The notes beneath the pieces are model-generated. The model saw only the letters and a program-made list of their open reading frames with translations. It was not told the origin of the DNA and ran no database searches. From Symmachiella macrocystis (GTDB taxonomy: Bacteria > Planctomycetota > Planctomycetia > Planctomycetales > Planctomycetaceae): a DNA stretch of 64,000 nucleotides. Position numbers and translations under genes: made by a program. The stretch spans positions 3,569,490 to 3,633,489 of the forward strand of contig NZ_SJPP01000001.1 of the NCBI RefSeq assembly GCF_007860075.1. The letters run 5' to 3'. Shown one piece after another: positions 11,821 to 16,483 of this stretch. Each line of letters opens with the position of its first letter. The first letter of the stretch is position 1.

Positions 11821-13836
11821 ATGTCCGATCCTCCTGCCAGACCACAGGCACTACCACCGCGTCTCTCTTGGGCGCTCGGCATGGTTATTGGCGGCACGTT
11901 GGCCTATTGCATCGGCTTGCAGATGCTGCTTGAGGATCAATCGCTTTCCTCCAATATGATCAGTTCCGGCCTGTGGCGAAAGGTCGTCAGCATTTTTGGC
12001 GGCGAAGTCAAAGCCAATCCCGCCGCCAATGCACTCACAGCGGTCGTTCCCTTTTTCCGTTTGCTGCTGATCAATGGCACGGCGAGCGTTGTTACGTGGC
12101 TGGCTGGGGCGTTCTGGTTGAGTCGCAAACGCGGCGAAGAATACGTCGATTCGCTCGCCTATTGGGGCTGGCGAGGCTGGCCGTGGTTGTTGCTGCCGTT
12201 TGTCTGGCAAATCCTGTGGCTGATCTCCCTGGGTGGCACGTGGAATCCATTCGTCACCGCCAGCACGCCCTTCTGGTTGGCAATCAGCTGCGCCGGTTGG
12301 GGGGCCACATTTTTCACATTGGCTTTGCCGCGACAAGATTCCCAAACCATCGACGCCACTCCACCGCAGCGCGTTCCCTGGGCATTGTGGTTGGGAATCG
12401 CACTGTTCGTCGGCTGTTTCTTCGCCATGAACCGGCAACTGTATTACGGGCTGCAAACGCCACACGGCGATTCAGCGATGTACGAAGAGCATCTTTGGAA
12501 TCTCACGCACGGCAAAGGCTTTCGCAGCTTTCTGGATTACAACACCGAGCGGCAGCCGCCGGAGTTTCGTCTGTTTTTGGGCGAGCATATCCAAGTCGTG
12601 CATGTGTTGTTGTTGCCGGTGTATCTCATCTGGCGTTCGCATCTGACGTTAGAGTTGTGCGAAACCATTGCCTTGGCCAGCGGGGCGTTGGCGGTATTTT
12701 TCATCGGGCGGCGACATTCCGGTTCGCGCCGTGGTGCCGCCCTGCTCGCCGGCGCGTACCTGCTCTATTTTCCGCTGCATTTTTTGGATATCGAAATCGA
12801 CTTCAAAACGTTCCGCCCGATTTGTTTCGGCGTACCGGCGATACTTTTTGCGCTTGATCAATGGGAGCGCGGGCGTGTTAAGACGATGCTGTTGTTACTC
12901 GCCGTTGCTCTTTCGGCCAAAGAAGACTACGCGATGATTCTCGCCCCGCTGGGGATATGGATCGCCCTACACCGGCAGGCGGAGGCGGACCATCCTCTCC
13001 CGCGCAAACGGCTCTGGTGGCTGGGAGGATGTATGGCACTGTTTGGAGTGCTATATTTGATGTTGGTGATCAAATTCGCCATCCCCTACTTTCGGGGCGG
13101 CGATGTGCATTACGTGCGTTATTTCCCCGAAGATCTGGGCGCAACGCCCGGCGAAATGGTGCGCAATGTCTTTATCCATCCACTGCGAGTGGCCGGGTAT
13201 CTGTTCACGCCGGGCAATTTGCTGTTCGCGCTGTATTTGTTGTTGCCGCTCGGCGGATTGCCGTTATTGTCTCCCACGCGGTTGGCGGTGGCGGCTCCGT
13301 TGTTTGGTGTGCTGTGCCTGAATCAACTTGCCCGTGATACGCAACACCACTTCCATGCGCCGTTGATACCGATTCTTTTCTGGGCAGCGGCCGCATCGCT
13401 GACGACCACTGCACGATTTCGGCCGCGGTGGGCATTCGCCTGCGCGTTGTGTACGGGATTGTTTTTCAGTGTCGGGCCGACGGGAATCGCATTTTGGGAC
13501 CCCGCATCCGCCTATTATTGGGAGCGCTGGTACGTGCCGGGTGAACGGGCTGAGAAATTCGCGGAAGTGATCGAGCAAATCCCCGCCGAATCAAAAGTCG
13601 CCTCGACCGATTTCGTGCATCCACGCTTCACGCATTACGCGCGGTCGTATGACTACAGCGACTACCGCCCCGTCGTCCCGGATGACACGGATTACATCGT
13701 GATTGATACGCGGCATCGCTACAGCAACATCAAGCTGCCGAGTGAGGTCAAGGAATTTCGCGACAATCCGCAAACCTGGGAATTGTTACCTGATCGCACT
13801 GACGGTTACTTCATCGTGCTGCGTCGCCGCCGCTGA
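11821..13836 (+). CDS. DUF2079 multi-pass membrane protein
   Basis: This is a predicted inner-membrane protein of 671 residues with roughly a dozen hydrophobic segments from residue 20 to 570. It carries the DUF2079 hallmarks HGDSAMYEEHLWNLTHGKGF, LGEHIQVVHVLLLPVYLIW and DIEIDFKTFRPICFGVPAI. DUF2079 resembles GT-C type glycosyltransferases, but no reaction is established. The C-terminal 100 residues (VASTDFVHPRFTHYARSYDY) look extracytoplasmic. The open frame begins at 11734, but ATG 11821 starts the homologous part. It is divergent from the GDPD gene. Confidence 0.8.
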   Translation: MSDPPARPQALPPRLSWALGMVIGGTLAYCIGLQMLLEDQSLSSNMISSGLWRKVVSIFGGEVKANPAANALTAVVPFFRLLLINGTASVVTWLAGAFWLSRKRGEEYVDSLAYWGWRGWPWLLLPFVWQILWLISLGGTWNPFVTASTPFWLAISCAGWGATFFTLALPRQDSQTIDATPPQRVPWALWLGIALFVGCFFAMNRQLYYGLQTPHGDSAMYEEHLWNLTHGKGFRSFLDYNTERQPPEFRLFLGEHIQVVHVLLLPVYLIWRSHLTLELCETIALASGALAVFFIGRRHSGSRRGAALLAGAYLLYFPLHFLDIEIDFKTFRPICFGVPAILFALDQWERGRVKTMLLLLAVALSAKEDYAMILAPLGIWIALHRQAEADHPLPRKRLWWLGGCMALFGVLYLMLVIKFAIPYFRGGDVHYVRYFPEDLGATPGEMVRNVFIHPLRVAGYLFTPGNLLFALYLLLPLGGLPLLSPTRLAVAAPLFGVLCLNQLARDTQHHFHAPLIPILFWAAAASLTTTARFRPRWAFACALCTGLFFSVGPTGIAFWDPASAYYWERWYVPGERAEKFAEVIEQIPAESKVASTDFVHPRFTHYARSYDYSDYRPVVPDDTDYIVIDTRHRYSNIKLPSEVKEFRDNPQTWELLPDRTDGYFIVLRRRR

Positions 13837-13862
13837 CAGGCCGGTCATTCAACCTCGCTCGC

Positions 13863-14867
13863 TCAAAACCACTTCTCTTTGTCGGCCGGGGTCAAGAACT
13901 CTTCACCGTTGATGTAACGGCGAATATTCTCCAACAATGTTTCGGTATGTCGTTCGGCGATGCGCGGCGAGGCGGCCGCGACGTGCGGCGTGATGAGTAC
14001 GTTTTCCATGCCCCACAGCGGATGGTCGGCGGGGAGCGGTTCGACTTCAAACACGTCCAGTGCTGCGCCGGCAATCTGTCCTGCCTCGAGTGCGGTGGTC
14101 AGCGCCCCCAAGTCGACAATCGCACCGCGTCCAATATTAATCAGATAGGCCGAGTCTCGCATTTGCTGAAGCTGTTCGGTCGAGAAAAGTTTTTCTGTCT
14201 CCGGCGTGTGCGGGGCGGCGATTACCACAAAATCACTGGAGGCCAACAGGTCGGGAAGTTGGCGGATCGGCCATATTTCCGGCAGGACATCGGGGATCTC
14301 ACGGCGGACCGGATCGACGCCCAGCACATGCATGCCAAAGGCGCGGGCCCGGCAAGCGATTTCACCACCGATGCTCCCCACGCCGACAATCCCCAGCGTG
14401 CAATCAGCCAGATGCAGTGCGCCGCGGTCAATGGCATTGACTTGCCCCGGCCCGTTCACAAAATCGGCCCGGGCTTCTTCTCCACCGACCGGTGCCCACC
14501 GAGATTGCATTTGTTGCCGCAAATAAATATGGGAATTGCGCGCGAACATCAGCACGTAGCCGAGCACGTGATCGGCGATGACGTCGTAAAACAAGCCCCG
14601 CATATTTGTCAACTGGCAAGGATGCGCGACCAATTCTGGAAAGAGGTAATGCTCCAAACTAGCGGTCGGTGACTGCACCCAGTCCAACTGCTTTGCACGT
14701 GCCAACAGTTGTGGTGTCAGCTTTCCGAAGAACGCGGTTGCCTCGACGATTGCTTCGTCGGCGGTCGCTTGATCGGCTGCATTCACAACAACCATGTCTT
14801 GCGCCGCATCCTGAATTCGTTGCAGACGCAGATCGTCGACGGGCGGAAAGATGACAAGTTTTTTCAT
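13863..14867 (-). CDS. D-isomer-specific 2-hydroxyacid dehydrogenase
   Basis: It is predicted to reduce a 2-keto acid or oxidise a D-2-hydroxyacid with NAD(P). The Rossmann motif GIVGVGSIGGEIACRARAFG is intact. The catalytic set is visible: Arg in INIGRGAIVD, Glu in ALDVFEVEPLP and His in ITPHVAAASP. Length (334) fits the family. The substrate cannot be inferred from neighbours. The gene converges with DUF2079 (26 bases apart). Confidence 0.88.
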   Translation of the reverse strand: MKKLVIFPPVDDLRLQRIQDAAQDMVVVNAADQATADEAIVEATAFFGKLTPQLLARAKQLDWVQSPTASLEHYLFPELVAHPCQLTNMRGLFYDVIADHVLGYVLMFARNSHIYLRQQMQSRWAPVGGEEARADFVNGPGQVNAIDRGALHLADCTLGIVGVGSIGGEIACRARAFGMHVLGVDPVRREIPDVLPEIWPIRQLPDLLASSDFVVIAAPHTPETEKLFSTEQLQQMRDSAYLINIGRGAIVDLGALTTALEAGQIAGAALDVFEVEPLPADHPLWGMENVLITPHVAAASPRIAERHTETLLENIRRYINGEEFLTPADKEKWF

Positions 14868-15002
14868 AGCGTATCGGTTCTGGTTGAGGCGTCAAAGCAT
14901 TGCGTAATCACAAGCGCCGCGACTTAGTTTTGAGATTGAAATTTCACAGTTGTCCGGTCGGGTTCATTCCGTTCTCTACTTCGCAGCTTTGGTAATATGA
15001 TA

Positions 15003-15015
15003 CCACGTCACGTGG
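15003..15015. promoter_or_regulatory. Perfect palindrome CCACGT-C-ACGTGG, possible operator
   Basis: Two six-base half sites surround one base. It sits between a dehydrogenase gene and the csrA homologue, about 40 bases ahead of a promoter-like sequence. The binding protein is unknown. Confidence 0.35.
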
Positions 15016-15051
15016 CTGTTGTTTCATCACTTGGGTGCGCGCAAACGTAAT

Positions 15052-15080
15052 TTGTCAAGTATCGATTCCTAAAAATACAA
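15052..15080 (+). promoter_or_regulatory. Candidate promoter for the csrA homologue
   Basis: TTGTCA at 15052-15057 (five of six consensus bases) and TACAAA at 15075-15080 (four of six) are separated by 17 bases. Confidence 0.4.
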
Positions 15081-15223
15081 AGACTTTTTTCATCCATAAT
15101 CCGACGTTTTGGAGCTTGCTCTTCCGAGGACTGTTCGACAAAATGGGACACCAACGCATGACGTTCGATGCGTGTTTTCTGATTTCTTCTTTCGACTCTT
15201 ATTCAGATTCAAGAGGCTGGTTG

Positions 15224-15406
15224 ATGCAAGTCATCTCACGTGCTGAAAGCGAATCGATTCAGTTTGGCAAAAACTTGACCTTAACCGTGGTGGAGATCAC
15301 CGACGAATACGTCCGCTTGGGCATGACTTCCACGGATGGCGAACTGAACTACTGGGAAGAGATCCTGTACCTGCAAACACAAGAGGCGGAATTGCAGCTC
15401 AATTAA
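15224..15406 (+). CDS. csrA: CsrA-family carbon storage regulator, divergent
   Basis: CsrA is a small dimeric RNA-binding protein that controls translation by binding GGA motifs in leaders. The 60-residue product aligns along its whole length: MQVISRAESESIQFG matches the first strand, LTLTVVEITDEYVRLGM the middle strands, and YWEEILYLQ the last strand and helix start. The usual Leu4 is Ile and the critical Arg44 is Trp44, so classical RNA binding is doubtful. The frame is open from 15035, but ATG 15224 has AAGAGG seven bases upstream and begins exactly at the homology. It stands alone; no flagellar genes or fliW are near. Confidence 0.8.
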   Translation: MQVISRAESESIQFGKNLTLTVVEITDEYVRLGMTSTDGELNYWEEILYLQTQEAELQLN

Positions 15407-15453
15407 CACTTTGTGAGACAGCTCGAAATGACGCGTCCCTCTGCTGACCGGTA

Positions 15454-16278
15454 TTACTCATGGAAGCTGTGCGTATCGTCAGGAAACGAATTGTCACGAG
15501 TTTCCTGAATGTAATTCCGCACCGATGAGTCGACAATGCTTCGCAGGTCCGCGTACTTTTTGAGAAATTTTGGTGCGAATCCGGGGGTTAACCCCAGCAT
15601 GTCGTTGGTCACCAAAACCTGCCCATCGCAATCCGGGCCGGCGCCAATGCCGATTGTGGGAATCGTCAACGTGGCTGTGATTTCAGCGGCAATTTCCCGT
15701 GGAACGCACTCCAAAACAATCGCAAAAGCTCCCGCATCTTGCGCTGCTAAGGCATCGTTCAGCAACGGTTGTTTGTCACGCTGCACCTTGTAGCCGCCAA
15801 TTGAGAGTACGGATTGTGGTTTGAGCCCGACGTGAGCCATCACCGGCACATCAGCGCCCGTCAATTTTGCGATGGTGCCCGCCTGGTTGACCCCCCCCTC
15901 GAGCTTGACTGCTGCTGCGCCTGTTTCTTTGATCAACCGTCCGGCGTTTTCCAACGCTTGTTCGGGGCTGACATGAAACGACATGAACGGCATGTCCACG
16001 ATGACCAACGCCTGCTTGACCGCGCGGACAACCATCTCCGCATGGTAGATCATCTGCTCGACCGTGACCCGTAATGTGGAATTCCGGCCTTGGACCACCA
16101 TGCCCAGCGTGTCGCCGACAAGAATGGCATCGATGCCAATTTCATCCAAGAGCTGTGCCCACGTGAAGTCGTACGCCGTCAACACCGTGAGCTTACGGCC
16201 CTGTTGTTTTGCCGCTGAAAATTGAGGTACGGTCCAAGGGGAAGCGGGCTGTCCGCCGTTGTCAGCATCTGTAGTCAT
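15454..16278 (-). CDS. panB: 3-methyl-2-oxobutanoate hydroxymethyltransferase
   Basis: PanB transfers a hydroxymethyl group from methylene-tetrahydrofolate to ketoisovalerate, the first committed step to pantothenate and coenzyme A. Conserved segments include LTAYDFTWAQLLDE, ILVGDTLGMVVQG, VVDMPFMSFH, AAVKLEGG, VMAHVGLKPQS, IVLECVPREIA and TIGIGAGPDCDGQVLV, with the Mg2+-binding Asp residues in VGD and VDMP. Length (274) is slightly above the E. coli protein because of a short N-terminal extension. No panC or panD is adjacent, so the pathway is dispersed. Confidence 0.95.
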   Translation of the reverse strand: MTTDADNGGQPASPWTVPQFSAAKQQGRKLTVLTAYDFTWAQLLDEIGIDAILVGDTLGMVVQGRNSTLRVTVEQMIYHAEMVVRAVKQALVIVDMPFMSFHVSPEQALENAGRLIKETGAAAVKLEGGVNQAGTIAKLTGADVPVMAHVGLKPQSVLSIGGYKVQRDKQPLLNDALAAQDAGAFAIVLECVPREIAAEITATLTIPTIGIGAGPDCDGQVLVTNDMLGLTPGFAPKFLKKYADLRSIVDSSVRNYIQETRDNSFPDDTHSFHE

Positions 16279-16483
16279 CGGGTCGCGTCTTTTTTATCTT
16301 GGGTGATCTCAAAATCCATCCGTCGCGGCGATTCCCGGGGGATTCATGTCGCCACATGGAAAATGATTGCCGTCGGCACTCAACCCGTGTATCCTAACGA
16401 ACGAGGTCTCCGAAGTCACATAGGTTCGCCATGCCCGCTTCAGCAGGCTAGCAGACCTGTTTATTATCACATCAGGAGCACAG

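Follow-up and report, generated by a model that had tools for sequence, protein, structure and literature searches.

The window, that is, the whole 64,000-nucleotide stretch of Symmachiella macrocystis DNA analysed here, contains a short gene for a divergent relative of CsrA that lies between two genes on the opposite strand and is preceded by several small candidate regulatory elements. The features of the locus are as follows.

13863..14867, minus strand: gene for a D-isomer-specific 2-hydroxyacid dehydrogenase (Pfam 2-Hacid_dh_C), the divergent neighbour, conserved with the csrA clade described below
15052..15059, plus strand: TTGTCAAG box, which precedes the -35-like hexamer by about 57 bases
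15116..15144, plus strand: promoter-like site, TTGCTC (15116-15121), a 17-base spacer and CAAAAT (15139-15144)
15154..15173, plus strand: palindrome, presumably the one in the original prediction
15213..15216, plus strand: Shine-Dalgarno sequence GAGG, of a type common to most of the clade and holding no GGA
15224..15406, plus strand: divergent csrA paralog of 60 aa (ORF translation, Pfam match, clade tree)
15353..15355, plus strand: codon 44 of that gene, TGG (Trp), where Arg is replaced (ORF translation)
15454..16278, minus strand: panB (ketopantoate hydroxymethyltransferase), the convergent downstream neighbour, found in this place in seven clade rows, all W44

The start codon at 15224 is supported by the GAGG. 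In the window, the csrA frame remains open further upstream (15035-15223) as far as a GTG at 15035. The sister species G001 shows the same, but in the congener G002 the open frame reaches only 12 codons up. This extension is probably not coding, because the promoter-like site lies inside it.

The original prediction described the product as a 60-residue CsrA homologue that aligns without gaps with E. coli CsrA, and this description holds. The Pfam CsrA family (PF02599) matches the window protein with 28.4 bits, above the cut-off of 27, over residues 1-34 only, and it matches all 20 members of set A1 at E <= 0.001. A profile of 20 clade rows aligns with the solved E. coli CsrA (1y00) from residue 1 to 58 with E = 2.1e-13, and the alignment is free of gaps throughout, including strands beta1-beta5. 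Together with the translation, it confirms the predicted Ile at position 4 and Trp at position 44. Displacement of the Arg by one position is excluded; the only Arg residues are 6 and 31, and none follows residue 31. Beyond positions 4 and 44, the protein departs from E. coli CsrA at Q2, A7, S36, E40, N42 and Y43. The NCBIfam models for CsrA (NF002469 and TIGR00202) match it detectably over residues 1-38, but the scores of 26.7 and 24.2 bits fall far short of the cut-offs of 73 and 70.1, and the protein is therefore no CsrA equivalog. These profile scores put it within the CsrA superfamily but outside the equivalog. At its C-terminus (15389-15403) it reads ELQLN, and endings of the kind ELQLN or ELQLQ are found in several clade members, chiefly those with W44. 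Leucine at position 59 occurs in 22 of the 30 W rows and in four R rows, a covariation with residue 44 that may reflect phylogeny. An ELQLN-type C-terminus is possibly a short binding motif.

The gene is one of several of its kind in the genome (7.57 Mb, 6 contigs). A PF02599 search places ten genes, the window gene included, above the cut-off, one of which passes only together with its frame neighbours. A canonical csrA elsewhere in the genome had been raised as a check on the original prediction, and such genes are indeed present, for example L001 and L002, which are classical csrA genes scoring 95.3 and 90.5 bits. All nine of the other CsrA-domain genes have Arg, as judged by eye, at the place of residue 44, in L008 and L010 across an insertion. 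L008 (C1:2063578-2063763, minus strand) encodes a CsrA-domain protein whose core is interrupted midway by an insertion, and L010 (C1:3405346-3405435, minus strand) belongs to a 117-codon frame made up of a CsrA start, a long insert and a weak second CsrA-like piece.

Searches of 59 related genomes and of the 170 genomes of the family show a recurring divergent protein marked by the motif P-x-Y-[W/R]-E. Its rows were taken from the best-scoring listed places in the family, mostly one per genome and above roughly 62 bits, and were made non-redundant; weaker members are therefore under-sampled. In a 99-row csrA tree, which is unrooted, is built on 60 columns and has many inner forks unresolved, a branch with 96/93 support separates 81 rows from 18 rows of canonical and other CsrA proteins. 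The clade carries the signature P41-x-Y43-[R/W]44-E45, to which L41-N42-Y43-W44-E45 corresponds in the window protein. A search of 297 genomes of the class, family included, at E <= 1e-17 gave matches in two genomes outside the family, both with copies that appear canonical by eye, and a search of 246 genomes of the phylum at E <= 1e-19 gave no match outside the window's family. These cut-offs are strict enough that some members within the family were missed too, and at this strictness the divergent group has been seen only in the window's family. By sequence comparison, the window gene belongs to an ancient lineage of CsrA paralogs that share common descent and are retained across one planctomycete family.

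Most members of this lineage share a neighbourhood as well as a signature, a context that the original prediction had missed. The dehydrogenase gene lies divergently upstream in 47 of 81 clade rows, uppS lies downstream on the same strand in 62, and cdsA then follows in 55 of those 62; uppS and cdsA are genes for cell-envelope lipids. One or both of the dehydrogenase and uppS neighbours are present in 74 rows, and neither is present in the remaining seven. Neither neighbour is found beside any of the 18 non-clade csrA rows, at least two of which (L029 and L118) lie at contig ends. The ancestral layout was probably a dehydrogenase gene pointing one way and csrA, uppS and cdsA following one another in the other direction. 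In seven rows, all of them W44 and including the window and two congeners, panB stands in place of uppS; the uppS-cdsA pair of the window's own genome is on another contig, where (L185:2504-4153) it adjoins a gene that by eye resembles formylmethanofuran dehydrogenase subunit A. The dehydrogenase gene itself is present in 106 of 170 family genomes (E <= 1e-70). Inspection of 40 further regions upstream of it revealed seven more clade csrA genes, two of them cut by contig ends, all with R44 by eye and outside the 81-row counts, and 33 regions without a clade csrA.

How is the gene likely to be expressed? The original prediction proposed a leader with a promoter-like sequence and a palindrome, and of these the promoter-like sequence stands. 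Of 48 representative leaders, 26 contain the pattern TTG[CT][CT][CT], 16-18 bases, [CT]ANAAT, where shuffled leaders give 0.3 on average and 2 at most; in 20 of the 26 it lies 91-108 bases ahead of the start codon. The TGTCAAG of the upstream box is present in 30 of the 48, against an average of 1.6 and a highest count of 6 after shuffling, and in 24 of the 30 it lies 147-171 bases ahead of the start; both patterns were written after viewing the same leaders, which flatters the contrast with the shuffles. The form CTTGCTCTT-N14-16-CARAAT has a single match in the window's own genome, the window site. A simple scan with the standard sigma-70 consensus gave 0 matches, and the case for the promoter-like site therefore rests on its conservation, which extends to about half of the representatives. 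If the site is used, the leader would be about 70 bases long, not 135. Even the congener G002 lacks a conserved counterpart of the palindrome, which is probably incidental. Two other readings of the upstream region were rejected. First, a sigma-54 promoter was considered; COG1551 is described in excerpts of PMC12316311 as enriched among sigma-54 targets in Planctomycetia, but the window has 100 sigma-54 matches against 117.75 expected, with none in 14868-15223. Second, the TTGTCAAG box was considered as the -35 element of the divergent dehydrogenase gene, but visual inspection of the window and two other leaders found no fitting -10, and the box persists in genus g56. The box is kept in g56 rows that have no divergent dehydrogenase gene; its reverse complement holds TTGACA. 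Folding of the 48 representative leaders showed no clear excess: the mean z was -0.44, where three control segments taken further upstream gave -0.19, -0.33 and +0.18. Rfam gave no match at gathering scores in 13800-16400, and terminator-like sites numbered 2 against 1.2 in shuffles.

Purifying selection acts on the gene, and W44 copies are constrained like R44 copies. Between the window gene and that of the sister species, dN is 0.014 and dS 0.110, a dN/dS of about 0.13. Over pairs with dS of 0.1-1.5, the median dN/dS is 0.116 within g56, the W44 genus (37 pairs), and 0.105-0.178 in three R44 groups (15-33 pairs). These values bear directly on the idea that the paralog is decaying or drifting without a function. 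Such a fate could explain the weak Pfam score, the loss of known functional residues and the absence of uppS linkage in the window's genus, but it sits badly with the low dN/dS, both against the sister species and within g56, with the conservation of the promoter-like site and of synteny, and with near-invariant residues at Y43 and E45. Decay is highly improbable and for the most part already refuted. The original prediction had allowed for either a different ligand or a loss of classical activity; classical RNA binding that has been altered or lost is the reading favoured here, whereas loss through decay is contradicted by dN/dS of about 0.1-0.2.

Which residues of the RNA-contact face have changed? 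According to excerpts of PMC6692469, the mutants of E. coli CsrA with the strongest effects on RNA binding are R44A, V42A, L2A, I47A, V40A, L4A, R6A and R7A. Of these eight positions, the window protein retains I47 and R6 only. In place of the hydrophobic pocket for GGA (L2, L4, V42) it has Q2 and N42, with I4 a mild change. The same positions are altered across the clade. L2 is present in 4 of 81 clade rows and L4 likewise in 4 of 81, against 18 of 18 other rows in each case, with Ile or Val, again a mild change, at position 4 in 53 of 81. A36 is rare in the clade and universal in the other 18 rows. Position 40 is mostly E, T, A or S in the clade, where 15 of the 18 others have V or I, and position 42 is mostly S, A, P, Y or T, where all 18 have V or I. 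Conversely, Y43 occurs in 79 of 81 clade rows against 2 of 18 others, and E45 in 78 of 81 against 11 of 18. The clade is also acidic: residues 1-47 carry a median net charge of -5, compared with +1 in the other rows, and the median pI is 4.34, compared with 5.92. For E. coli CsrA the pI over residues 1-58 is 8.21 and the core charge is 0, so the contrast in core charge with E. coli is smaller. Part of the RNA site survives, since Arg44 is present in 45 of 81 rows, R6 in 71 of 81 (18 of 18 others), E46 in 62 of 81 (18 of 18 others) and Ile or Val at position 4 in most. On these aligned residues, W44 belongs to a broader remodelling in which most of the ANGGA-reading residues of canonical CsrA are replaced in the clade. 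The view of W44 as the sole defining change was thus too narrow, with R commoner at 44 and the entire RNA-reading face altered.

Arg44 is held essential for RNA binding by CsrA in excerpts of PMC7366521 and PMC7652899. Across the 81 clade rows residue 44 is R in 45, W in 30, Q in 3, Y in 2 and F in 1. It is thus Arg or aromatic in 78 of 81, and Arg in 18 of 18 non-clade rows. The original prediction asked whether W44 might be a trait of a subfamily, and its occurrence in 30 of 81 rows bears this out. The Arg44 codons in the clade are CGC (25), CGA (13), CGT (4) and CGG (3), and CGG alone is one base from TGG. The R/W state changes at least 7 times on a dehydrogenase tree (44 labelled rows) and at least 6 times on a UppS tree (55 labelled rows), both quick trees with many weak forks that are independent of the csrA alignment, and at least 11 times on the best csrA tree built without column 44; on the csrA tree, a single W44 group is not rejected (AU p 0.077). 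W44 is probably a common, recurrent state of the subfamily, not a one-off. Thirteen of the 30 W rows lack the uppS neighbour, compared with 3 of the 43 R rows that remain once two with less than 900 bases after csrA are dropped (Fisher p 0.0004). With 2 independent pairs on supported branches, a tie between W44 and loss of the uppS neighbour is not established.

Could the protein still bind GGA? Canonical CsrA recognises GGA largely via backbone contacts (excerpts of PMC6692469), and it has to be considered that the clade consists of classical GGA-binding translational regulators of lower affinity, with Trp44 stacking as Arg44 does and the beta5 backbone reading GGA. The R6-E46 pair, said in excerpts of the same source to be indispensable in RsmE, is mostly kept, position 44 is almost always Arg or aromatic, position 4 is mostly aliphatic and the Pfam CsrA model still matches. 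This reading is nonetheless unlikely, given the acidic core and the replacement of L2, A36, V40 and V42 in most rows. The leaders point the same way, although not uniformly. ANGGA occurs 0.12 times per leader in clade csrA (shuffled 0.24, n=48) and 0.19 times in the dehydrogenase genes (shuffled 0.25, n=26), no more than in shuffles, and slightly more than in shuffles for uppS (0.40 against 0.25, n=15) and cdsA (0.39 against 0.22, n=23). In canonical csrA leaders the figure is 1.31 (shuffled 0.39, n=13). These leaders give no sign of GGA-type autoregulation of the window gene, and the ANGGA contrast is partly due to the type of Shine-Dalgarno sequence.

The dimer-forming strands were predicted to be intact, and the core hydrophobic positions are indeed kept (I14 in 75 of 80 rows, V22 in 74 of 80, V30 in 78 of 80 and L32 in 66 of 80). 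Two single-chain AlphaFold2 models (mean pLDDT 74.6 and 66.9) place strands at 11-14, 18-25, 29-36 and 42-49 and have no C-terminal helix H1 after beta5, with low pLDDT past residue 50. Foldseek ranks CsrA chains first for the model with a weak E of 0.1, and VIA-align gives CsrA a Z of 4.1, tied with unrelated chains; because of these weak matches and tied scores, assignment of the CsrA fold rests on sequence. The conserved core is also compatible with an action through protein contact, in which the paralog would pair with the cell's own canonical CsrA chains in mixed dimers, or contact another partner, and blunt or redirect them. Each CsrA site combines beta1 of one chain with beta5 of its partner, which means that a single defective chain ruins both sites. 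Among the protein-based alternatives, such mixed dimers come first. The core hydrophobic positions are conserved and the RNA-contact positions are not, the genome offers potential partners in its nine further CsrA-domain genes, and CsrA surfaces that include H43 and R44 bind the protein CesT (excerpts of PMC5864733). However, the predicted lack of the C-terminal helix would remove a known protein-binding element, in the region where CesT and FliW bind (excerpts of PMC5864733 and PMC7829508), and protein contact is unlikely as the main mode of action.

What, then, might the lineage do? Most likely it consists of functional CsrA-fold paralogs from which classical GGA reading has gone. With a probability of roughly 0.57, the window gene would be an ancient, kept CsrA paralog that retains the dimer, binds a ligand other than GGA with its beta1/beta5 face and acts as a local regulator of nearby genes. 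First, the protein would retain the core of beta strands and the intertwined dimer of CsrA. Second, the beta1/beta5 surface (Y43, W/R44 and E45, with R6-E46 mostly kept) may bind something besides the classical GGA hairpin; the retention of Y43, E45 and an Arg or aromatic residue at 44 argues that it is still a binding face. Third, the near-constancy of Arg or an aromatic residue at 44 suggests that a flat side chain stacks on the ligand there, so that R or W could serve alike by planar stacking. Fourth, the protein would most likely regulate adjacent genes of envelope-lipid and central metabolism, either by way of an altered RNA target or through a partner protein. The paralog of the window's genus would have left uppS-cdsA and kept the dehydrogenase neighbour alone. 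A more specific version, in which the lineage ceased to read GGA and became a dedicated regulator of the uppS-cdsA and 2-hydroxyacid dehydrogenase locus, binding a new RNA motif or a protein while its key position toggles between Arg and Trp, is possible but can be put forward only tentatively.

A conserved lineage, often with Trp44 under purifying selection and with a remodelled contact surface, amounts to a natural experiment on the re-tooling of a global RNA regulator, and it supplies clear positional orthologs for testing. A link between lipid-carrier synthesis in planctomycetes and regulation at the post-transcriptional or protein level is suggested as well. No description of the lineage was found among the literature matches listed, which comprise titles and abstract openings, with subscription journals largely outside.

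How does the lineage compare with known systems? The phage CsrA-like regulators phrog_5527 and phrog_9500 match the first 39-47 residues of the window protein weakly, but the window gene differs from them in being chromosomal and syntenic across the family. A phage origin of the gene was considered and rejected, as the phage collection searched gave weak matches only, the best by tblastn with E 0.07 and 37% identity over 38 residues. Divergent CsrA proteins of the RsmN/RsmF type are CsrA-fold paralogs with altered architecture. With the CsrA/RsmA/RsmE family (PF02599) the clade has in common a gap-free alignment, a comparable length and the R6-E46 pair. It differs from that family in having W or R at 44, in having L2, A36, V40 and V42 mostly replaced, in being acidic, in its predicted lack of the C-terminal helix, and in forming a clade of its own with a neighbourhood of its own.
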